Below, one piece after another: positions 9,507-32,990 of a stretch of DNA of 64,000 nucleotides (its first letter is position 1; every line of letters begins with the position of its first letter). The translations under genes were made by a program, and so were the position numbers. This DNA comes from Thalassotalea sp. (GTDB taxonomy: Bacteria; Pseudomonadota; Gammaproteobacteria; Enterobacterales; Alteromonadaceae), in assembly GCA_029237915.1 (NCBI GenBank), contig JAQWHD010000036.1, positions 1 to 64,000 on the forward strand, read 5' to 3'. The notes under the pieces are model-generated. The model searched no databases. It was not told where the DNA came from and saw only the letters and a list, made by a program, of their open reading frames with translations.

Positions 9507-10334
9507 CTAAAATACATAAATAGCACTAATGCCAACTTCAGCTTCAAAATCATTGCGAGCGATTGGGCTGTCTCTTACTTCACTACTATAGTATTCAAAA
9601 AGTGCTTCACCGTAGATCTGCCAGTTCTCATTGATGTTATGGCGATAATTGTAATCAATACCAACCGAACGAACACCACCGCTTAGGTCTGTCTCTTCTA
9701 AGCCTGATGCTGCAGCCTGTGTTGCATCTATGCCAAATCCTGTATTTGCGTACTCACTGTCATGAACAACGACAACTAGGTTAACTTCTGAACCGGTACC
9801 ATCGGCTTGCTCGCCAAAGCGTCGACCGACACCAAATAAACCTAAATTTCCTTCATCACCCGCGACAATGCGTCCGACCATCCAATAGCGCCAGTCGGAG
9901 GTAAACGAGCGACGAGCTTGTAGAACTAGTTCAAACCCTTCATCTTGATCACCCAGGCCATCAAGTCGACCGTCGTCCGAATCACCTTCTTCTCGTCCTT
10001 CATCAAAGCCGATCAAGGCACCTAACAACCAATCATCAGAAACAAGACCTCGCCAGCCAAAGGCTTCTCCCGCAAAGTAATATATATTGTCACCTTTACG
10101 CCATTGCAGGGCACCAGCAGGCTGGACTTCAAATCCAAATTCATCAGAGCCTTCGTATGCAGACTCATATTCAACGCCTAAACCAATGCCGAACGCCCAA
10201 CCATTTTCGCCTTTGCTAAAGTCATCGACTGAGGGTAAGGGCACTAAAACAGCGTTGTTTTCTTGTGCCATTGAGGTGTTAAAAATGGAGAACTGTATAA
10301 GCAATACCAAAAGTAGGCTTGTTGTATTTTTCAT
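9507..10334 (-). CDS. MipA/OmpV family outer-membrane protein
   Basis: 275 aa. A signal peptide covers about residues 1-23, ending TSMAQ. A beta-barrel follows with alternating hydrophobic/aromatic strands and a C-terminal Phe (ISAIYVF) typical of Bam-inserted proteins. Family signs are the GWAFGIGLGVEYESAYEGSD opening and the ALQWRKGDNIYYFAGEA region. MipA/OmpV proteins are porin-like or scaffold proteins of unclear cargo. It is divergent from the TonB receptor at 10478 with a 143-bp shared promoter region, so the two may be co-regulated. Confidence 0.85.
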   Translation of the reverse strand: MKNTTSLLLVLLIQFSIFNTSMAQENNAVLVPLPSVDDFSKGENGWAFGIGLGVEYESAYEGSDEFGFEVQPAGALQWRKGDNIYYFAGEAFGWRGLVSDDWLLGALIGFDEGREEGDSDDGRLDGLGDQDEGFELVLQARRSFTSDWRYWMVGRIVAGDEGNLGLFGVGRRFGEQADGTGSEVNLVVVVHDSEYANTGFGIDATQAAASGLEETDLSGGVRSVGIDYNYRHNINENWQIYGEALFEYYSSEVRDSPIARNDFEAEVGISAIYVF

Positions 10335-10477
10335 TGGGTTACCTTAATTGAGTAATACTCTCAATCTTGTACTAGAGTTTATATCTATAAGATACGTAAG
10401 GACTTTCTGTAAGGATCAAATAATTAAGGTCTAGGCAAAGTTCCGCTATTGAAGCTAATTCATCTAGGGATATCATT

Positions 10478-19657: not shown

Positions 19658-20893
19658 TTATTGTGCTTTTCGGGCGACAAAATGCACCGTACTGGTAGCG
19701 CGCTCTAAAAAAGCACCTTCACAGTAGGCTAAATAGTATAGCCATAAACGCTTAAAGCGTTCATCATAGCCAAATTGTGTTAGTTGATTAAACGATTGTA
19801 AAAAGCGGGTACGCCAATCAGCTAATGTGCGGGCATAATCTAAGCCAATATCATGTAGCTCTTCTAACACGCAGCTGGTTTCTTTAGTCAGCATATTATT
19901 CATCAAGTTAATTGACGGTAAAAAGCCTCCTGGAAAGATATAGCGCTGGATAAAGTCGACATTATGTAGGTAGTGTTCAAAGCGTTGGTCGGCAATGGTA
20001 ATTGCTTGAATAAGCAAACGTCCGCCAGGCTTTAATCTGTCATTACATTGCTTAAAAAAGCTTTGCATGTATTCATAGCCAACCGCTTCAATCATTTCAA
20101 TAGAAACAACCTTGTCGTAACTGCCGGTTAGATTGCGGTAATCTTCTTTGAGTAAGGTGATTTTGTCTTCAAGATTCAGCTCTTTTACGCGTTGCTCTGC
20201 ATATTCATGCTGAGCATCTGAAATAGTGGTTGTGGTAACTTTACAGCCATAATTAGATGCAGCATAAATGGCTAACCCGCCCCACCCAGTACCAATTTCT
20301 AGAATATGGTCGCTTTCGTTTAATTGCAAACGTTGGCAGATCATTTCTAATTTATGCAGTTGCGCTTGCTCTAATGTTGCATCACTACTTGGGTATATTG
20401 CTGATGAATACATCATCTCTTTATCTAAAAAGCGAGTGTATAATTCATTACCAAGGTCATAATGGGCAAGGATATTCTTTTTAGAGCCAGACTTACTATT
20501 ATGATTACGGCGATGGAACATCTTGTATTTGAGTTTATTAATCCACGCCATTTTTTGCTCAAGCTGATCGGTTAATTTTTGCGCTTTAGCAAAAATGCGA
20601 ATAATTGTGGTTAGGTCTGGAGAACTCCATTTGTTGTCTATAAAAGCTTGGGCCACACCAATGCTGCCACCCTTAACAAAATCGATATAAGCCGTAGGGT
20701 CGTTTATGATCATTTTACTTTGTAGTTGCGCATTATTACTTTGCTCAATATTGCCAAAGCTATAGGTATTTTCACCTTCAATAACTTCAAGCGAACCTTC
20801 TTCTATTCGATTTAATAAAGCAAATACCAACTGACGGCATCGGCTATTTATCCATGTAATTTTTTGCTGTGAATGATCAATGGTGCTTTCCAC
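19658..20893 (-). CDS. cfa: Cyclopropane-fatty-acyl-phospholipid synthase family methyltransferase
   Basis: 411-aa SAM-dependent methyltransferase acting on unsaturated acyl chains of membrane phospholipids. An N-terminal lipid-binding domain (about 1-110) precedes the Rossmann domain with ILEIGTGWGGLAIYAA (SAM site). VVSIEMIEAVGYEYM carries the conserved Glu, and HYDLGNELYTRFLDKEMMYSSAIY is typical of Cfa. It is last in the operon led by the ECF sigma factor. In that context it could methylate unsaturated chains on the way to furan or other modified fatty acids rather than make plain cyclopropanes. Confidence 0.88.
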   Translation of the reverse strand: MESTIDHSQQKITWINSRCRQLVFALLNRIEEGSLEVIEGENTYSFGNIEQSNNAQLQSKMIINDPTAYIDFVKGGSIGVAQAFIDNKWSSPDLTTIIRIFAKAQKLTDQLEQKMAWINKLKYKMFHRRNHNSKSGSKKNILAHYDLGNELYTRFLDKEMMYSSAIYPSSDATLEQAQLHKLEMICQRLQLNESDHILEIGTGWGGLAIYAASNYGCKVTTTTISDAQHEYAEQRVKELNLEDKITLLKEDYRNLTGSYDKVVSIEMIEAVGYEYMQSFFKQCNDRLKPGGRLLIQAITIADQRFEHYLHNVDFIQRYIFPGGFLPSINLMNNMLTKETSCVLEELHDIGLDYARTLADWRTRFLQSFNQLTQFGYDERFKRLWLYYLAYCEGAFLERATSTVHFVARKAQ

Positions 20894-20958: not shown

Positions 20959-21753
20959 TTATTTTGTATTATTTTTAGTTTGGTATGAAATAAAGGGCAC
21001 TTTCTTTATAAATAATTTAAGGGCTTGCCAATAAATTCCGGACACTATTTTTAATGTCATTAATGGTAATGCTAACCAAATATTGAGCATCGCTTGCTTT
21101 GAGAAACTGTGCTGTTTTAACGCTAACGTGGCATCAAATAATTTACTGTTAGTATCTTCTGTCTTGCTAGTATGGTTGGCAATGTGAACTAACAGCTCAC
21201 TCTTTTCATGCAATGGCGGCTTTACTGTCCAGTGATATTGCATGTTTAAATCCATAAACGGTGATACATGAAACTCTTTTTCACTGACATTGCTGCCTTG
21301 CATATCAATTAAATAATAATGGCATTGATTCCATGGTGTATTACTTACCTCGGCTAACATATACACACATTGTTGCTTGCCATCCTTGGTCAAATCATAG
21401 CAAAAGTAGAAGTTAGCCGGACTAAAGTAAATACCAAAGCAGCGAGCTTGAACTAGCATAGAAATACTATCACCTTGATAGTCGCCGCCAAGACTTTTCA
21501 CTTTATCTTGAATACGAATAAGTAAGCTGTCGTTGTCACCTTGACCTTTTAAGTAATCTTGCTCGACAAAGCGGATAGGGTTATACCAATGTTTACCAAA
21601 AATGGGCCCTGGTAATTTATCTGCCATTACTTCTTTTACGTCTAGGCACAGCATATAAAGGGAGTAACTAAAGTGATGTGGTTTTGGCGAAAAACGACGA
21701 TGCCTAACTTGCCCACGATAGATACGACTTTGAATTGATAATTTATTATCCAT
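20959..21753 (-). CDS. DUF1365 family protein
   Basis: 264 aa. IYRGQVRHRRFSPKPHHFSYSLYMLCLDV at the start and CFGIYFSPANFYFCYD in the middle are DUF1365 signatures. The biochemical role is unknown to me. The family almost always sits beside a Cfa-like methyltransferase and an FAD oxidoreductase, as here, so it probably works on membrane fatty acids. There is one hydrophobic segment near the C-terminus (LNIWLALPLMTLKIVSGIYW). The gap to cfa is 65 bp, in the same operon. Confidence 0.82.
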   Translation of the reverse strand: MDNKLSIQSRIYRGQVRHRRFSPKPHHFSYSLYMLCLDVKEVMADKLPGPIFGKHWYNPIRFVEQDYLKGQGDNDSLLIRIQDKVKSLGGDYQGDSISMLVQARCFGIYFSPANFYFCYDLTKDGKQQCVYMLAEVSNTPWNQCHYYLIDMQGSNVSEKEFHVSPFMDLNMQYHWTVKPPLHEKSELLVHIANHTSKTEDTNSKLFDATLALKQHSFSKQAMLNIWLALPLMTLKIVSGIYWQALKLFIKKVPFISYQTKNNTK

Positions 21754-21805: not shown

Positions 21806-23059
21806 TTATAACTCACAGCCAAATCGAGCGCCAACATCAACTGCGCTACGAACGCCGTCCTCATGAAAACCGTTATACCAATAAGCACCAGTGAAGTGAG
21901 TATTGTTTTGCCCGCAAATTTTATGTCGTTGTAGCTGCGCCTTTAAACTTTCAACATTGAACACAGGGTGATGGTAAACAAACTTACGTAAAATTTTCGA
22001 CTCATCAATCGCTTCATTTTGATTTAGCGTGACACAAAATGTGGTGTCGTCTTGTAAGCCTTGTAAAATATTCATGTTGTAAGTAACACTCGCTGGTTTG
22101 GTGCGGTTGTCGCTTAGTTGGTAATTCCAGCTCGCCCAAGTTTTTCTGCGTTTAGGCAATAGACTGACATCGGTATGTAAAACAACATCATTAGGGCTAT
22201 ATTGCATTGCGCCGAGTATGGTTTGTTCGTCATCATTAGCATCGCCTAATAGCGCTAAGGCTTGGTCAGAATGACAAGCAAAAACTACTTCATCAAATTC
22301 TCGTACATCACCATTGTTAAAATGTAATTGTACTTTCTCATTATGACGAGTGACTTTACTAATGTCAGAATTAAGCTCGATGTTGTCGGCAAATTGTTTT
22401 ATCAACGGCGTAATGTATGAGCGAGAGCCATTAGGAATAACATACCATTGTGGCCTATCCGATATATTTAATAAGCCGTGATTATTAAAAAACTGCACAA
22501 AGAATTTAAACTGAAAACCTTGCATTTGTTCTAACGAACTTGACCAAATCGCTGCGCCCATTGGTAGGATATAGTGATTAGAAAAATACTCATTAAAGCC
22601 ATTGGCATCTAAAAATTCACCTAAGGTAAGTTGTTCATTAAACTGGTCGTCACTATAGGCTTGTTTACATAGTTTATTGAATTTTAGGATTTGCATGATC
22701 AGTTGCCAAAATTTGGGCCTAAAGATATTGCGTCTTTGTACGAATAAAGTGTCTAGATTATTACCATTATATTCTAGTCCGGTTTGGCAATTATGCACGG
22801 CAAAGCTCATTTCACTTTCTTGCTTACCTATGCCAATATTTGTCAGTAATTTAAGGAAATTAGGGTAGGTTTTATTGTTAAATACAATGAAGCCAGTATC
22901 GATAACATAATTTTTATTGTTAACCTCTACATCAACTGTTGCGGTATGCCCGCCAATATAATCGTTCTTTTCAAATACGGTTACTTGGTGTTTCTGGCTT
23001 AATAAATAGGCCGAGGTTAAACCTGAAATTCCTGAGCCTATAATGGCAATGTTTTTCAT
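21806..23059 (-). CDS. NAD(P)/FAD-dependent oxidoreductase
   Basis: 417-aa flavoprotein of the amine-oxidase/desaturase-like superfamily. The N-terminal dinucleotide motif is IAIIGSGISGLTSAYLL (residues 4-20), followed by VFEKNDYIGGHTATV. The C-terminal TGAYWYNGFHEDGVRSA closes the FAD fold. Proteins of this type cluster with Cfa and DUF1365. By analogy with Rhodobacter genes for unsaturated and furan fatty acids, a membrane acyl chain may be oxidised. It overlaps the SDR gene by one base. Confidence 0.82.
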   Translation of the reverse strand: MKNIAIIGSGISGLTSAYLLSQKHQVTVFEKNDYIGGHTATVDVEVNNKNYVIDTGFIVFNNKTYPNFLKLLTNIGIGKQESEMSFAVHNCQTGLEYNGNNLDTLFVQRRNIFRPKFWQLIMQILKFNKLCKQAYSDDQFNEQLTLGEFLDANGFNEYFSNHYILPMGAAIWSSSLEQMQGFQFKFFVQFFNNHGLLNISDRPQWYVIPNGSRSYITPLIKQFADNIELNSDISKVTRHNEKVQLHFNNGDVREFDEVVFACHSDQALALLGDANDDEQTILGAMQYSPNDVVLHTDVSLLPKRRKTWASWNYQLSDNRTKPASVTYNMNILQGLQDDTTFCVTLNQNEAIDESKILRKFVYHHPVFNVESLKAQLQRHKICGQNNTHFTGAYWYNGFHEDGVRSAVDVGARFGCEL

Positions 23060-23787
23060 TAGCGAATACTCCTAGCTATCAGCCACTGCCAAAGAGGGGC
23101 GGGTAGCATCGCAATTAATTTTAAAAGGTAAGTGAAACGTTTAGGAAAGTGTAAGTAAGATTTTTTTGCTTTAACGCCTTGGTAAATACGACTGGCCGCA
23201 TCAATACTGGTGATTTTAAATGGCATGTCGAAAGTGTTCTTATCAGTCAATGGTGTTTCTACAAAACCAGGATGAACAAGGGTTACGCCAATATTATGTT
23301 TACTTAAATCGATACGTATTGAATTAGCTAAATAATCAAGTCCCGCTTTCGATGCGCCATAAGCTTCTGCTCTTGGCAGTGGCAGTATGGTTACGCTTGA
23401 ACTAACTAATACCACTTGGCTACCACTAGTCATTTTCGGTAATAGAAAATGCAATAAATGGCCAATAGCAATTAAGTTTACATTAATAATGTGCTGAAAA
23501 AGGCTATTGTTAAAGCTGGTAACATCATCAATATATTCACAATCTCCAGCGTTCAAAATAATAATGTCGAGTTGTTTAATATCGCTAACGGCTTGTTCAA
23601 TATCAGCGGTTTTGGTGATATCAAATGACAATGTTAATAGTGGTTTCGTATCTGTATCATCACTTAACTGTGCTAGTTTTTCTTGATTACGGCCACAAGC
23701 AATAACGTCATGGCCTTGTTTTAAATACTGGTGCACTAAAGCTTCACCAATACCAGATGTTGCTCCAGTAATTAATACCTTACTCAT
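23059..23787 (-). CDS. Short-chain dehydrogenase/reductase
   Basis: 242-aa SDR. The NAD(P) motif is TGATSGIGEAL (residues 7-17), with a NAG-like IILNAGD and the catalytic YGASK (Tyr/Lys). SSVTILPLPRAEAYGASKAGLDYL follows the standard order. The C-terminus has a membrane-proximal hydrophobic stretch. The start overlaps the SnoaL-like gene by 4 bp (ATGA type), so translation is coupled. The substrate is unknown; the operon suggests a lipid intermediate. Confidence 0.85.
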   Translation of the reverse strand: MSKVLITGATSGIGEALVHQYLKQGHDVIACGRNQEKLAQLSDDTDTKPLLTLSFDITKTADIEQAVSDIKQLDIIILNAGDCEYIDDVTSFNNSLFQHIINVNLIAIGHLLHFLLPKMTSGSQVVLVSSSVTILPLPRAEAYGASKAGLDYLANSIRIDLSKHNIGVTLVHPGFVETPLTDKNTFDMPFKITSIDAASRIYQGVKAKKSYLHFPKRFTYLLKLIAMLPAPLWQWLIARSIR

Positions 23788-24368: not shown

Positions 24369-25793
24369 TCAACTGTTGGTCTTATAAAATTCTAGAGCTG
24401 CTAGTCGAGCCAATTTATGATCTACAATTGCAGGCCAGTAGCAGGTTAAATTTTGCTGAGCTAGGTATTGATGAGGAAAATGCAGGTGTTTAATCGGTAC
24501 TTCCTTTAGCTCTGGCAAATACTTACGGATAAAATCACCATTAGGATCAAATTTTTGACTTTGGCTGATAGGATTGAATACCCGAAAATACGGTTGAGCA
24601 TCACAACCTGTTCCTGCTGACCACTGCCAACCACCATTATTAGCAGCTAAGTCACAATCGATTAATTGTTCACTAAAATACTTCTCACCTAAACGCCAAT
24701 CAATAAGCAGGTGCTTAGTTAAAAAACTAGCGACTATCATACGTAAGCGATTATGCATCCAGCCTGTGGTATTTAACTGCCTCATTGCTGCATCAACAAT
24801 GGGATAGCCGGTTTTTCCTTGTTGCCAAGCCTGTAATCGCTTTGGATTATTTGGCCAAGGTAGGGCGTTATATTTTTCCCGGAAGTTTTCACTTTTGCAT
24901 AGCTTTGGAAAGTGCCACAGCAGATGACGGTAGAACTCACGCCAGATTAATTCATTTAACCAGGTAAATTCGTCTGAGTCGTTACTGATTAAAATATCGG
25001 GATAACGTTGCATAATTAGCACAAGTAAATAACGAGGGCTGAGAGCGCCAATGGCTAAATAAGGAGAAAAGCCAGATGTTCCCTTTATTGATGGTATATC
25101 TCGGTGTTGATTATAATCGCTTATTTTATCGCTTAAGAAATTGCCAATAACATTAGCTTCAACGCTATCAATTAATGGCCAGTGACTTGAGTCTTTAGTC
25201 GTCAGGTTTTTTCTTAAAGCGGCTAATTGTAAAACGCAATTATGTTCTTGCTTGGAATTTGAATTGGAACTGGAATTTAGGCTTGAATTTTTGTTCTTCG
25301 GGTAGCGATATATATAGCTAAAGCCATTGTCTCTAACATAACGTAACCAAGACTTTTTAAACGGGGTAAAAACCTTATACATATCACTGCTTAGGTTTAC
25401 TACCTTACCATGAGGTACAATTACATCAGCACAAAATAAAGATAAATCGCAGCCAAGTTGCTGTAATTTTTTATCGCGATCACGCTCGTTTATTTCTATT
25501 TCACTGTTGGCAATAACTGCTTTATTTTGCTTTATTGCATGCTCTCTTAAGTAATCGATTTGACCTTGAAAGTCACCAACATCAATAATAGTTAAGCTAA
25601 TGCCTAGCTGTAATAACTGCTCACTTAATAGCTGTAAGTGCCTTAATATAAAGTCAGTTTTTATTGGTGCTTGGTTATGCTTTTGCCATTGCTCAGGTGT
25701 GGCCAGGTATATTGCCTGTTTATCGCCTTGAGCGAGTGCATGATCAAGGGCTGGGTTGTCATGTACTCGCAAATCGTTACGAAACCAAAGCAT
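24369..25793 (-). CDS. phrB: Deoxyribodipyrimidine photolyase
   Basis: 474-aa class I CPD photolyase that uses blue light, FADH- and an antenna to split pyrimidine dimers. The N-terminal LWFRNDLRVHDNPALDHAL starts the antenna (Rossmann) domain. The FAD domain has GTSGFSPYLAIGALSPRYLL, WLNELIWREFYRHLLWHFP, MRQLNTTGWMHNRLRMIVASFLTKHLLIDWR and NNGGWQWSAGTGCDAQPYFRVFNP. A flexible Ser/Asn-rich insert lies near residue 175. It sits inside the ECF-sigma/ChrR operon, which suggests induction by photo-oxidative stress. Confidence 0.93.
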   Translation of the reverse strand: MLWFRNDLRVHDNPALDHALAQGDKQAIYLATPEQWQKHNQAPIKTDFILRHLQLLSEQLLQLGISLTIIDVGDFQGQIDYLREHAIKQNKAVIANSEIEINERDRDKKLQQLGCDLSLFCADVIVPHGKVVNLSSDMYKVFTPFKKSWLRYVRDNGFSYIYRYPKNKNSSLNSSSNSNSKQEHNCVLQLAALRKNLTTKDSSHWPLIDSVEANVIGNFLSDKISDYNQHRDIPSIKGTSGFSPYLAIGALSPRYLLVLIMQRYPDILISNDSDEFTWLNELIWREFYRHLLWHFPKLCKSENFREKYNALPWPNNPKRLQAWQQGKTGYPIVDAAMRQLNTTGWMHNRLRMIVASFLTKHLLIDWRLGEKYFSEQLIDCDLAANNGGWQWSAGTGCDAQPYFRVFNPISQSQKFDPNGDFIRKYLPELKEVPIKHLHFPHQYLAQQNLTCYWPAIVDHKLARLAALEFYKTNS

Positions 25794-25829: not shown

Positions 25830-26774
25830 TTAGTAACCGTAACGTAGTTTTAGTTGTGCTGGGTACGGGTTCAAATAACTTTGTTGTTGTAAGTATTGCT
25901 TTGGAAACGTTAATAAGTAATGTTTAATCAAAGTTAAAGGTACAACTAATGGCACTATGCCTTGGCGGTAATCTTCAATCTGTGAACAAAGCTCTTGTTT
26001 TTCCATTGCTGATAAATGTTTAGAAAAATAGCCCTGCATATGTTGTAAAGTGTTGGCGTGTTTTCTGCGTGTGGCTTTAATTTTTAAAGCGGTCATTAAG
26101 CCAAGAATATATTGCTGCGCCATATCTTCAAGTGATAGATCAGCACGAGCTAATAACTGTCCTAGGGCTTTGTAAGCAACTAAGTCGTGGCTCATCACTG
26201 TATATTTGTAACGGCTATGGAAACTGGTTAGTTTATGCTTAGTTAAACCTGATGACACAAGTTCTTGCCAGCTGCGATAAGTAAAAACACGAGCAACAAA
26301 ATTTTCTCTGATCACTTGGTCATTTAAACGACCATTTTCTTCACAAGGCAATAGCGGGTTAGCTGCCATCACTTCTCTTGCGAATGTACCTATGCCGTCT
26401 GACGTTGAACCTTTACCATCGGCACTATAGACTTTTACCCTTTCCATGCCACAGCTTGGACTTTTAGCGCAAAAAATATAACCACTAAACTTTTCAGCAA
26501 CTTTGGCCACTCGTTTGCCATACTCAGCTAATGCTTCAGTTACATCGCCACTTCCGTCTGGTCTAGATACTGAAATAATATCATCGTTCTTAATTTGACG
26601 TATGGTAGGTCTAGGGACAGGTAAACCAATCGCTACTTCTGGGCAAAAAGCTCTGTACTGAACGTGGTTACCTAACTCTTCTACGCAAAAGTGTGATGTT
26701 TTGGCACTTGAGTCATAACGAACATTTTGTCCTACTAAGCAGGCGCTGATACCGATAGTAATTGGTTTAGTCAT
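25830..26774 (-). CDS. DUF523-DUF1722 fusion protein (YbbK/YbgA-like)
   Basis: About 314 aa from ATG 26774. DUF523 domain (residues 1-150): ISACLVGQNVRYDSS and FCPEVAIGLPVPRPTIR, with AKSPSCGMERVKVY. DUF1722 (YbgA) domain (about 185-300): FHSRYKYTVMSHDLVAYKALG. Function is unknown; YbgA-like genes often lie next to photolyase, as here. A longer frame to 26864 exists. The sigma-type promoter at 26826-26853 lies inside that extension and argues for the shorter start. The N-terminal MTKPITIGISACLVG also matches family beginnings. Confidence 0.82.
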   Translation of the reverse strand: MTKPITIGISACLVGQNVRYDSSAKTSHFCVEELGNHVQYRAFCPEVAIGLPVPRPTIRQIKNDDIISVSRPDGSGDVTEALAEYGKRVAKVAEKFSGYIFCAKSPSCGMERVKVYSADGKGSTSDGIGTFAREVMAANPLLPCEENGRLNDQVIRENFVARVFTYRSWQELVSSGLTKHKLTSFHSRYKYTVMSHDLVAYKALGQLLARADLSLEDMAQQYILGLMTALKIKATRRKHANTLQHMQGYFSKHLSAMEKQELCSQIEDYRQGIVPLVVPLTLIKHYLLTFPKQYLQQQSYLNPYPAQLKLRYGY

Positions 26775-26825: not shown

Positions 26826-26853
26826 CTTACGGCAAAACTTATCAATAGGATCA
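26826..26853 (-). promoter_or_regulatory. ECF (RpoE-ChrR type) promoter 2
   Basis: On the minus strand TGATCC (26848-26853), 18 bp, TAAG (26826-26829). This is identical in boxes and spacing to the site upstream of the sigma gene. The expected transcript start is about 45 bp before the ATG of the DUF523-DUF1722 gene, which leads into photolyase and the lipid genes. Confidence 0.75.
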
Positions 26854-26903
26854 AAAAAGCTCAAAATTAATTGAGCTTTTTATATTGAGGACAGCAAAAG
26901 GGG

Positions 26904-27572
26904 TTAGTAAATCAAACTACCAATAGGGTTGAGTAACTTATTAATGCCTTGCGTAAAATGTTGCGCACCGTCTGCTACGGTGAAACATAAACACCCATCT
27001 GTAGTTTCTGGTGTATGCTGATGTTCGCCATCAAGCATAATAAAATCACCGGCAACATAAGTGCCCATTTCATCTTTAAATGAACCTTGTAATAACAAGG
27101 TAAGCTCAAAGCCTTTATGGGTATGTTCAGGAACACTGCCACCTGGTGCAATTTGCAATAAACTGGTATGAATATCACCTTCATTAAGGTCCATTCTGGC
27201 ACGAGTGATTTTTCCAAAGCTATTCCATTTACCCATTGGCATGTGTTGAATTGCACGTGGAATTTTGTAATCTTGGCCTTTAACAGTAACCGTCATAGGT
27301 ACATCTTCCGCAAGAAGTTCAATTGATTCATCGCTGGTGATTGCCGCAATCATTTGCTCAATATCTATTGCATTAAAATCAATGTCGTTTGTCGCTTCAC
27401 CTGGGCTTTGTTCAAATGACAACTCAGCTTGCTCTTCGGTCATATTATTTACAGTACGCGCGCACTGTGGGCATAACTCATTGTGCATTGCTATGGCTGC
27501 AGAAAGTGACGCTGGTAATTGACCATTCACATGGCCGCTTAATAATTCTGTATTTGGATGATGCTTAATCAT
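26904..27572 (-). CDS. chrR: ChrR-type zinc anti-sigma factor with cupin domain
   Basis: 222 aa. The N-terminal anti-sigma domain has the zinc motif H-x3-C-x2-C (H30, C34, C37), and the C-terminal cupin has H150-x-H152-x3-E156 and H184/H186 as likely metal ligands. In Rhodobacter, ChrR holds the ECF factor inactive and releases it on singlet oxygen; the cupin is needed for that response. The gene overlaps the sigma gene by 8 bp, giving coupled expression. All key residues are present. Confidence 0.9.
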   Translation of the reverse strand: MIKHHPNTELLSGHVNGQLPASLSAAIAMHNELCPQCARTVNNMTEEQAELSFEQSPGEATNDIDFNAIDIEQMIAAITSDESIELLAEDVPMTVTVKGQDYKIPRAIQHMPMGKWNSFGKITRARMDLNEGDIHTSLLQIAPGGSVPEHTHKGFELTLLLQGSFKDEMGTYVAGDFIMLDGEHQHTPETTDGCLCFTVADGAQHFTQGINKLLNPIGSLIY

Positions 27573-28146
27573 GGTTGTCTCCTAACTGCAGATCAACGTG
27601 CTGCTTCAATTTGTTTAATGCCAATCTGAGCCTAGATTTGACTGTGCCTAAGGGTAAATTAAGATGCTGAGCTAATTGCTCTTGCGACATCTCCATAAAG
27701 TAAAAACCTTTAATTACCTGTTGTTGCTTTTCTGGCAGACTATCGAGTAAAGCCAATACCTTTTGGTTTTCGATGTGGTCTGCAAACTCAGTTTCTTCTT
27801 CATCGGCGACATCAAGTGTCGGCCAAATATCGTCACTGAGGGTATCTTCTTTTTTCGACTGTATTTTACGTAACAAATCAAAACTTACGTTTCTCATTAC
27901 TGTATATACCCATGTAGTTGGCGCTCCTTTGTCTGCACTGTATAAGTGAGCTTTACGCCAAACATTAGTCATCGTCTCTTGCACAATTTCGTTAGCAATC
28001 GCCTGAGTATTAAATTTACTCGAGGATATACGTAATATTTTTGGTGAAAAAAATTTAAACAAGTTAGTAAATGCTTGTTTATCTCGGTCTTGGCCAACCG
28101 CGGTTAACCAATCCGCTAATTCTTTATGGTTTATTTCATCATTCAT
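27565..28146 (-). CDS. ECF RNA polymerase sigma factor (ChrR-controlled, RpoE-like)
   Basis: About 193 aa from ATG 28146. Sigma region 2: IANEIVQETMTNVWRKAHLY and TTWVYTVMRNVSFDLLRK. Region 4: LPEKQQQVIKGFYFMEMSQEQLAQHLNLPLGTVKSRLRLALNKL. The frame extends to 28236 with two more ATG codons, but homologous length and the start of the conserved domain favour 28146. It is directly upstream of chrR. An exact TGATCC-N18-TAAG site at 28260-28287 predicts autoregulation. It likely drives a singlet-oxygen/photo-oxidative response. Confidence 0.88.
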   Translation of the reverse strand: MNDEINHKELADWLTAVGQDRDKQAFTNLFKFFSPKILRISSSKFNTQAIANEIVQETMTNVWRKAHLYSADKGAPTTWVYTVMRNVSFDLLRKIQSKKEDTLSDDIWPTLDVADEEETEFADHIENQKVLALLDSLPEKQQQVIKGFYFMEMSQEQLAQHLNLPLGTVKSRLRLALNKLKQHVDLQLGDNHD

Positions 28147-28259
28147 ACTCTTATTTGTAATACGTTTATGATGAATTGGCAATGTTTTCAAAGGATTTTC
28201 AGTTCTTTGCTGTTCAGTAACTTGCATATACCGCATCCTGAATTGTCTATCTGTGTTGA

Positions 28260-28287
28260 CTTACGAAGCGTTTATCAAAGTGGATCA
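28260..28287 (-). promoter_or_regulatory. ECF (RpoE-ChrR type) promoter 1
   Basis: On the minus strand TGATCC (28282-28287), exactly 18 bp, then TAAG (28260-28263). As I recall it, this matches the described promoter form for RpoE-ChrR sigma factors of Rhodobacter. It lies about 110 bp before the sigma start at 28146. Confidence 0.78.
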
Positions 28288-28303: not shown

Positions 28304-28894
28304 TTATATTTTTTCTTTAATAAGTATTTCGCTAAGAAAATTTAGCGCTTTATTGAAACTATCTTGAGTACTAAATATTGACTTATCAGCAAAGGGCAAT
28401 GGTAATAGCTCTAACCAACGAGCACATACCCAGTGAGGGTCATCGATAAATATCAGTTGGTATAAATCGGCTAACGGTTTGTTGTCGTTAAACACTTGTC
28501 TTAATTGCCCAGATAGCTCTGATAGCTCTGATTGTGATTGTGCTTTTTGGCCTAAGCTATCTGCCCAATGTGCTCGAACTTCAACTTCGCCAACCATTAG
28601 TTGTTCATTATTTATAGATGTATTTTGTATATCGACTAAAGCTTTGCATTTAACGTCAATAACTAAAATACCGTCATCACCTTGCATAAAGTTAACGATT
28701 TCAACCCAGCTGCCCCAGGCGGAAATTTTGCTTTCAATATCTAGATTAGGCGAATCCTGGTAATAGCTAATAACAAAGCCATTAGTTTTGTGGACATTTT
28801 TAACCATGTTTAGATAGCGCTGCTCAAAGATACGCAACCGAGTTATCCCTTGAGGTAATAAGTAAATACTTAATGGAAAAATGGGGATGTTCAT
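28304..28894 (-). CDS. LON substrate-binding-domain protein
   Basis: 196 aa consisting only of the N-terminal substrate-binding domain of Lon protease: IPIFPLSIYLLPQGITRLRIFEQRYLNMV at the start, then beta-rich and helical parts. No AAA or protease domain follows. Such proteins are widespread stand-alone homologues of unknown role. The gene lies upstream of the sigma operon in the same direction, but the sigma promoter lies in the 157-bp gap, so it is probably a separate unit. Confidence 0.8.
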   Translation of the reverse strand: MNIPIFPLSIYLLPQGITRLRIFEQRYLNMVKNVHKTNGFVISYYQDSPNLDIESKISAWGSWVEIVNFMQGDDGILVIDVKCKALVDIQNTSINNEQLMVGEVEVRAHWADSLGQKAQSQSELSELSGQLRQVFNDNKPLADLYQLIFIDDPHWVCARWLELLPLPFADKSIFSTQDSFNKALNFLSEILIKEKI

Positions 28895-29017
28895 TAGTTA
28901 CCTTAGCCTTATATAAAATTAGTACCTACTTAATATACGTAGAGACAATAGAAAAAGATGATAAATTTTGAGTTTTAAATAGGTATTTCTTCATTAAATG
29001 TTCAGCATAATAATAAA

Positions 29018-30906: not shown

Positions 30907-31143
30907 GTTGTTTTCCTCTGAATTAATTAGGTTGCAATGATTGAACGCATAGTCTTTTAAAAAAGGATCATTTATTTTTTGAATTATTTTTAATCAGTTA
31001 AAAACATTAGCTTGAACAAGGTGTTGTGATAATAGAAGGGGTAGTTTCAACGGGACTTAGTATGGTTAAATTTAGTTAGATATGGCCGAGTTTACTCGGC
31101 TATAAGTGAGCATCAAGTATTATAAGCTTGTCGAGGTTTTAGT

Positions 31144-32848: not shown

Positions 32849-32883
32849 ATCCGTATATAAACTTAGTCTTTGCTTATACGGAT
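32849..32883. promoter_or_regulatory. 9-bp inverted repeat in the DUF2878 leader
   Basis: ATCCGTATA (32849-32857) and TATACGGAT (32875-32883) are perfect inverted copies 17 bp apart, just upstream of the DUF2878 start. It could be an operator or a leader hairpin. No TGATCC-N18-TAAG site was found here. Confidence 0.35.
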
Positions 32884-32990
32884 GAAATTGAAAAAAGGTT
32901 TATTTATAATTGATAAAATAATAGCTACAAGATTTTAATACATCATCAATGATATAGTGCGGTTCATACATTGTGCTAATTTGGCGAATT

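Follow-up and report, generated by a model that had tools for sequence, protein, structure and literature searches.

Which promoters serve the genes around a sigma factor–ChrR pair, and in particular the membrane-lipid genes at the far end of the cluster? The locus that raises this question lies in a 64,000-nucleotide stretch of Thalassotalea sp. (Alteromonadaceae, Enterobacterales; GenBank assembly GCA_029237915.1, contig JAQWHD010000036.1, positions 1 to 64,000), referred to here as the window. In it, genes for an extracytoplasmic function (ECF) sigma factor and its anti-sigma factor ChrR are followed by a DUF523-DUF1722 gene, a class I cyclobutane pyrimidine dimer (CPD) photolyase gene and the genes snoaL, SDR (short-chain dehydrogenase), ufaD, ufaO and ufaM. 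Judged from sequence alone, this is very probably an RpoE-ChrR (ECF11) regulon with a promoter before sigma-chrR (P1), a promoter before DUF523-DUF1722 and photolyase (P2) and a third (P3), embedded in the photolyase gene, that would serve the lipid genes. We also consider it likely, if with less assurance, that the photolyase gene is dual-coded in at least 14 genera, three of its synonymous codons being nearly frozen and the protein itself shaped by the lipid-operon promoter (the figure rests on genus labels, and two named genera may equal numbered ones). Such a regulon is already known in other organisms, along with its consensus, autoregulation, and photolyase and lipid targets; the placement of a promoter inside the photolyase gene appears to be new.

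An ECF11-type site within the photolyase gene

A sequence-only reading of this DNA had described TGATCC-N18-TAAG twice on the minus strand, and both copies lie exactly where it placed them (P1 and P2), but the window contains a third, in the photolyase gene. The TGATCC −35 box of that reading also stands, whereas its −10 box is better written as CGTA with a spacer of 16 than as TAAG with a spacer of 18. In Shewanella oneidensis, RpoE2 sites with mapped, sigma-dependent starts read TGATCC-N16-CGTA (PMC4336711; here and below, statements on published systems draw on the accessible parts of the papers cited). The consensus of Pseudomonas syringae PSPTO_1043 is likewise TGATCC-N16-CGTA (PMC5507510), and that of Vibrio cholerae SigmaE-ChrR is TGATC-N16-18-CGTAW (PMC5241685). 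We dropped TAAG-N18 as a motif definition because published sites have CGTA in common and differ beyond it.

The earlier pattern is indeed improbable by chance within the window (dinucleotide shuffles gave a mean of 0.11 and a maximum of 1 match per window), but it is unspecific by itself: the genome-wide scan proposed as its check returned 11 matches, where the reversed control gave 1. The 3.22 Mb genome contains seven copies of TGATCC-N16-CGTA and 2 of its reversed control, and four of the seven lie inside the window, all on the same strand. Of the three outside, one falls in the coding frame of a gene that, by eye, we take to be glnE, one is intergenic with an apparent terminator hairpin between site and next gene, and one precedes a DUF2189 gene. 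Allowing one mismatch made the whole-genome scan uninformative (82 matches against 74 in the reversed control). When the window was scored with a weight matrix derived solely from 15 published sites of Shewanella and Pseudomonas, the top four were P1, P2, P3 and a site at 10391–10418, at 19.3–19.5 bits; the fifth was 14.0, and the best across 20 simulated windows was 16.9.

P3 is written in the codons of the photolyase motif F-D-P-N-G-D-F-I-R-K, is oriented towards snoaL-SDR-ufaD-ufaO-ufaM and lies 233 bp from the snoaL start. At the sequence level, the site, its conservation, the constraint on its codons and its link to snoaL genes are all observed. A first set drew 22 photolyases from the ChrR loci of Vibrio and of the window's family. 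The amino-acid motif is present in 19, and all 19 use TTT, GAT and CGT, against 3.2 expected from the codon usage of each gene. The motif is missing from L094 and L095; L015, truncated at that point, was later found exact. Across 146 columns of a 19-gene alignment, which omits L015, L094 and L095, the codon is invariant in three, precisely the promoter codons. Order-wide, genomes with ChrR above cut-off have CGT and GAT in 29 of 29 cases and TTT in 28 of 29; genomes without ChrR have CGT in 2 of 6 (one Ser-for-Arg match excluded).

The exact promoter goes with the gene downstream. In the enlarged set it is present in 44 of 50 photolyases with snoaL next to them, against 2 of 26 without. Loci retained from L200–L225 had been fetched by amino-acid pattern, which inflates the raw 44/50 but leaves the synonymous test unaffected; without them the contrast is 28/33 against 2/23. 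Six of these 23 controls are genomes that also match the amino-acid pattern, which works against the contrast, and 30 added genomes were picked for absence of the pattern. The adjacency test was run without six of the 36 amino-acid-pattern genomes, which have no locus. We dropped duplicates (L009 and L012, from the same genomes as L127 and L093; L285, the same gene as L276), loci whose genes recur under other loci (L194–L199, L205, L210–L213 and L215) and L284, whose match stops short of the motif, and retained L010 and L013, which are near-identical at the site. Class-wide, a scan for the photolyase motif gave matches in 4 of 321 genomes, of which two had been included before.

Among photolyases with the same amino acids, the promoter codons appear in 45 of 47 snoaL-adjacent genes and 2 of 15 others, where their own usage predicts 6.6 and 2.3. 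When 93 conserved columns of the 47 genes were ranked by uniformity, the three promoter codons came out on top (GAT 47/47, CGT 46/47 or 98%, TTT in 43 of the 45 genes with Phe). The column ranked after them reached 0.89, and the other ten conserved Arg columns stayed at or below 0.46 for any one codon. This ranking used genes unselected by codon; a version on 44 exact-promoter genes was circular and was discarded. In the 15 non-adjacent genes the promoter codons were unremarkable, with the Arg column at or below 0.33 for any codon. At a G+C content of at least 55%, the codons are kept in 8 of 9 genes, though CGT makes up 4–30% of their Arg codons and the joint probability of the promoter codons under own usage is 0.015–0.16. 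Two genus labels, g16 and g44, contain both kinds of photolyase: those adjoining snoaL have the promoter, and the others use CGC (plus GAC in g16). The tail probability for the enlarged set treats genes as independent, which those of related genomes are not; we place the weight on the contrasts and on a count by genus label, in which 16 of 21 labels are all exact.

These codon counts amount to synonymous constraint at the P3 positions, as expected of purifying selection. The amino acids may be affected as well. With pattern-fetched loci excluded, Pro follows Asp in 30 of 33 snoaL-adjacent genes against 13 of 23 others, and a codon starting with A (Lys, Asn, Thr, Met, or Arg as AGA) follows Arg in 29 of 33 against 10 of 23, contrasts to which base composition and relatedness may also contribute.

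Could P2 be the sole functional promoter of a photolyase–lipid operon, with the lipid genes reached by readthrough? All these genes run in one direction at short distances, and a single upstream promoter is given in the papers on S. oneidensis and P. syringae (PMC4336711, PMC5507510). However, P2 is nearly confined to one genus, where a site scoring at least 12 precedes DUF523 in 8 of 9 members against 1 of 14 other loci, whereas P3 is kept over many genera; we therefore regard a P2-only operon as unlikely. Slightly less credible again is that the photolyase codons are held by some other element, such as mRNA stability, translational coupling to snoaL or another regulator's site. This would suit a constraint that follows the downstream snoaL, and the codons are kept at L262, where ChrR was not detected. 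Yet the constrained bases are the letters of the published −35 and −10 boxes at their published spacing, with the Pro wobble base and the spacer codons free to vary, and most snoaL genes without a photolyase before them have the motif in the intergenic space instead (15 of 20 loci, yet 0 of 5 in the window's family).

We give a lower probability still to a coding coincidence, in which FDPxGxFIRK simply happens to spell TGATCC...CGTAA. The motif is indeed conserved in the protein, and exact matches occur in 2 of the 26 photolyases without snoaL behind them; but genes with the same amino acids differ in codon according to their neighbour, and other conserved Phe, Asp and Arg columns are more variable. 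Chance coding had been our initial reading of P3 and was dropped after the codon-usage, column and snoaL-adjacency comparisons. That P1 and P2 are chance matches is highly improbable: the earlier pattern has 11 matches in the genome and TGATCC-N16-CGTA is not over-represented genome-wide, but both sites score at the top with a matrix from other species, stand 25 and 53 bp before starts and recur in 9/9 (P1) and 8/9 (P2) genus members.

Table 1. Features of the window, from the lipid genes upwards, followed by other candidate sites and their genes.
Feature	Position	Strand	Basis or remark
Cyclopropane-synthase-like methyltransferase, UfaM/Cfa-like	19658..20893	−	family match
DUF1365 protein, UfaO-like	20959..21753	−	family match
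FAD amine-oxidase-like, UfaD-like (furan fatty acid desaturase)	21806..23059	−	family and context
Short-chain dehydrogenase (SDR)	23059..23787	−	family match
SnoaL-like protein, first gene after P3	23784..24290	−	family match, adjacency in relatives
Class I CPD photolyase, carries P3	24369..25793	−	PRK10674, 510.9 bits (cut-off 506)
P3, embedded TGATCC-N16-CGTAAG	24522..24549	−	exact match, matrix, codon tests
DUF523 (2-thiouracil desulfurase family)-DUF1722 protein	25830..26774	−	family match
P2, predicted ECF11-type promoter before DUF523-DUF1722/photolyase	26826..26853	−	exact match; near-confined to genus
Intrinsic-terminator-like hairpin, 11-bp stem and T-run, between chrR and P2, abutting P2	26854..26881	−	
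ChrR-type zinc anti-sigma factor with cupin-like domain	26904..27572	−	TIGR02451, 180 bits (cut-off 124.5)
ECF sigma factor, RpoE/ECF11 type	27565..28236	−	best solved relative 2q1z_A, E 2e-29
P1, predicted ECF11-type TGATCC-N16-CGTAAG before sigma-chrR	28260..28287	−	exact match, matrix 19.5
LON substrate-binding-domain protein	28304..28894	−	counterpart of S. oneidensis SO_1987 (family, position)
Weak ECF11-like site before lon, TCATCT-N16-CGTATA	28934..28961	−	score 9.1, p 0.06
Degenerate site before fasciclin gene, TGATCC-N17-CGTT	30944..30970	−	fixed-spacer scan p 0.72
Weak site before DUF2878-chalcone isomerase-DUF3833	32875..32902	−	score 8.7, p 0.07
MipA-family outer-membrane protein gene (Pfam MipA)	9507..10334	−	17 kb from sigma gene
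ECF11-type site TGATCC-N16-CGTATC	10391..10418	−	19.3 bits; ~58 bp before MipA-family gene

Exceptions and replacement sites

Several observations weigh against a photolyase-embedded promoter serving the lipid genes within an RpoE-ChrR regulon. Six of the 50 snoaL-adjacent photolyases lack an exact P3 (L094, L095, L216, L242, L257 and L259). At L094 the photolyase motif is lost and an exact site stands at the snoaL start; L095 has no P3 motif, with sites before DUF523 and cfa; and at L216 and L242 P3 is one base off each. L257, whose motif aligned poorly and was scored as not exact, and L259 have neither P3 nor a good replacement site. Conversely, L262 (G047:C37) keeps P3 and its snoaL neighbour in a genome with no ChrR match. 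Five loci of the window's own family with no photolyase before snoaL (L085 and L087–L090) have no site of at least 13 bits there, the best scoring 10.2 bits. In a class-wide snoaL scan, the only two photolyase–snoaL neighbours outside the order (L293 and L294) lack P3 and all 12 photolyase-less snoaL-UfaD-like loci lack a good site (best 8.1), an absence to be read in light of the unestablished ChrR status of those genomes. The seven genomic matches to TGATCC-N16-CGTA are about the chance expectation for ten fixed bases at that genome size, the sites before lon, fasciclin and DUF2878 fall below significance in the window taken alone, and the published lists for S. oneidensis and P. syringae contain no promoter of the photolyase operon other than the one before it (PMC4336711, PMC5507510).

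Where no photolyase precedes snoaL, an intergenic site of at least 13 bits was present in 15 of 20 loci, some of them close relatives, and two further loci of those 20 have TGATCC-N15-CGTA; across the order, a replacement site stands before photolyase-less snoaL in 15 of 25 loci. The lipid operon thus appears often, not always, to have its own ECF11-type promoter, which would be embedded in the photolyase gene where that gene adjoins. Within the lipid operon, sites before the individual genes were not enriched at p < 0.05 (SDR 1/26, UfaD 1/27, UfaO 0/27, Cfa 1/26). In four of the family loci without a site (L085, L088, L089 and L090), snoaL-cfa is divergent from lon-sigma-chrR and the sigma factor is 38–45% identical to the window's. 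These sigma factors may read another promoter form.

Ufa assignments were made by family matches alone (CMAS, amine oxidase and DUF1365). At the sequence level, the photolyase, SDR, UfaD-, UfaO- and UfaM/Cfa-like genes all lie behind predicted ECF11-type promoters. In Rhodobacter sphaeroides, UfaD (RSP1091), UfaO (RSP1090, DUF1365) and UfaM (RSP2144) synthesize furan fatty acids (PMC7380195), and ChrR turnover under singlet oxygen requires furan-pathway proteins (PMC6852236).

The sigma–ChrR pair, P1 and P2

By its sequence, the pair is an ordinary ECF11/RpoE-ChrR system, as had been proposed. The sigma factor's best relative of solved structure is R. sphaeroides RpoE (2q1z_A), the next having an E value of 2e-10. 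The anti-sigma factor exceeds the TIGR02451 cut-off and aligns with PDB 2z2s_B (E 5e-19), including H-x3-C-x2-C, HxHxGxE and a later His, the ligand residues for this check being those given for ChrR in PMC6852236. Autoregulation, predicted earlier from sequence, is likewise supported at the sequence level. The end of the P1 CGTA lies 25 bp from the sigma ATG (28236), all 9 genus members that have chrR carry a site scoring at least 15.8 before the sigma gene, and across all loci 18 of 28 have one at p < 0.05; for the S. oneidensis homologue, autoregulation was shown experimentally (PMC4336711).

A ChrR match spanning the anti-sigma domain was present in 9 of 15 genus genomes and is split in one of them, G197. 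There (L134, G197:C1:1057200-1077100) ~3.4 kb separates the two chrR parts, and exact counterparts of P1, P2 and P3 are kept. With chrR split, control of the sigma factor may be incomplete. DUF523-DUF1722 is present in the nine genus genomes that contain ChrR, with a full-length match in 0 of the 6 remaining. These six (G199, G201, G203, G204, G205 and G209) gave no full-length match to ChrR or DUF523-DUF1722 and no photolyase match at E 1e-30, which suggests that they lost the three genes as a block.

P2 abuts a terminator-like hairpin that follows chrR (fold z −5.5; none of 200 shuffles equally stable). For the DUF523-DUF1722 gene the most likely start is the ATG at 26774, 53 bp downstream of the P2 −10 box; an alternative TTG-started frame, to 26864, would enclose P2. 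A terminator-like hairpin was found in 7 of 9 genus members, as a clean case in 5 of 9 (in L132 the hairpin is beyond the P2 site, and in L134 it is part of the interrupted chrR), and in 1 of 13 other loci. Between chrR and DUF523, no P2 was seen in 13 loci of other genera, and the two genes are merely 10–54 bp apart in 10 of the 13. In this genus, the terminator and P2 together would mean that photolyase was uncoupled from chrR and gained its own promoter. The sequence-only reading had expected photolyase and the lipid genes to be induced from P2 separately from sigma-chrR. For DUF523-photolyase this is plausible, with the terminator before P2, and would apply to this genus rather than as a general rule; for the lipid genes it gives way to P3, which stands before them.

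We propose that ChrR retains the sigma factor until an oxidant, by homology singlet oxygen or peroxide, inactivates it. Once free, the sigma factor would use P1 for its own operon, P2 for DUF523-photolyase and, for the membrane-lipid genes snoaL-SDR-ufaD-ufaO-ufaM, P3, whose bases would double as codons (F-D-P...R-K) and as −35 and −10 elements. In related genera, chrR transcription probably reads through into DUF523-photolyase, with P3 retained. That sigma-RNA polymerase starts transcripts at these sites, and what the inducer and lipid products are, we infer from the sites and from homologous systems; singlet oxygen as the signal would be inherited from the family, and the work on RpoE2 of S. 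oneidensis used peroxide and paraquat (PMC4336711).

Were this mechanism correct, the lipid arm would retain a direct line to the sigma factor regardless of changes upstream, while in R. sphaeroides the products of that arm feed back on ChrR. Selection for a sigma site would be powerful enough to have fixed codons in a conserved enzyme across many genera, and perhaps some of its amino acids as well, and synonymous changes in photolyase would abolish induction of genes that photolyase does not encode. Operon maps in print for the ECF11 stress response may overlook a lipid-gene promoter, and caution is due in reading a conserved protein motif, which DNA-level demands can partly underlie.

Known systems and further candidate targets

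One close likeness is to S. oneidensis RpoE2-ChrR, which shares autoregulation, a lon target, a ybgA-phrB-cfa operon and TGATCC-N16-CGTA promoters, with transcript starts mapped for rpoE2 and pgpD; unlike the window, its photolyase operon is apart from sigma-chrR (PMC4336711). R. sphaeroides RpoE-ChrR has homologous sigma and ChrR proteins (2q1z/2z2s) and UfaD/UfaO/UfaM-type targets, but its genes are arranged otherwise and no embedded promoter was seen in the accessible parts of the two papers (PMC6852236, PMC7380195). P. syringae PSPTO_1043 and V. cholerae SigmaE-ChrR share the motif form and the response of photolyase genes, whereas the same parts of their papers report no promoter within photolyase (PMC5507510, PMC5241685). 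In our literature search we found no report of a promoter inside photolyase; a mention in the core-regulon paper of Dufour et al. 2008 remains possible. A formal parallel is the Escherichia coli FliA promoter in flhC that drives motAB, also an alternative-sigma promoter within an upstream gene, but there the factor is sigma-28 and the function flagella, whereas the present case combines an ECF sigma factor with a DNA-repair enzyme and with promoter codons that hardly vary across many genera; E. coli intragenic FliA sites are mostly without detectable transcript (PMC4183435).

The regulon content given by the sequence-only reading was sound for the P1 and P2 sites but overlooked the MipA site and the weak sites before lon, fasciclin and DUF2878, which relatives support. 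A site before lon reaches p < 0.05 in 16 of 24 loci, the window counted among them and failing, and transcription of SO_1987 (lon) rises on RpoE2 expression in S. oneidensis (PMC4336711). Before DUF2878 the count is 6 of 10, the window again included and failing. For fasciclin it is 12 of 13, or all 12 relatives, the window failing. The relatives' fasciclin sites mostly have a TGATC-type −35, a spacer of N16 or N17 and CGTA, and the promoter may be decaying in the window.

The site before the MipA-family gene gains no support from G207, where a strong same-contig site precedes an unassigned membrane protein. Elsewhere in the genome, at locus position 1501 of L053 (G000:C67:73857-76882), TGATCC-N16-CGTAT lies ~60 bp before the DUF2189 membrane protein gene, a candidate further target in this single genome.

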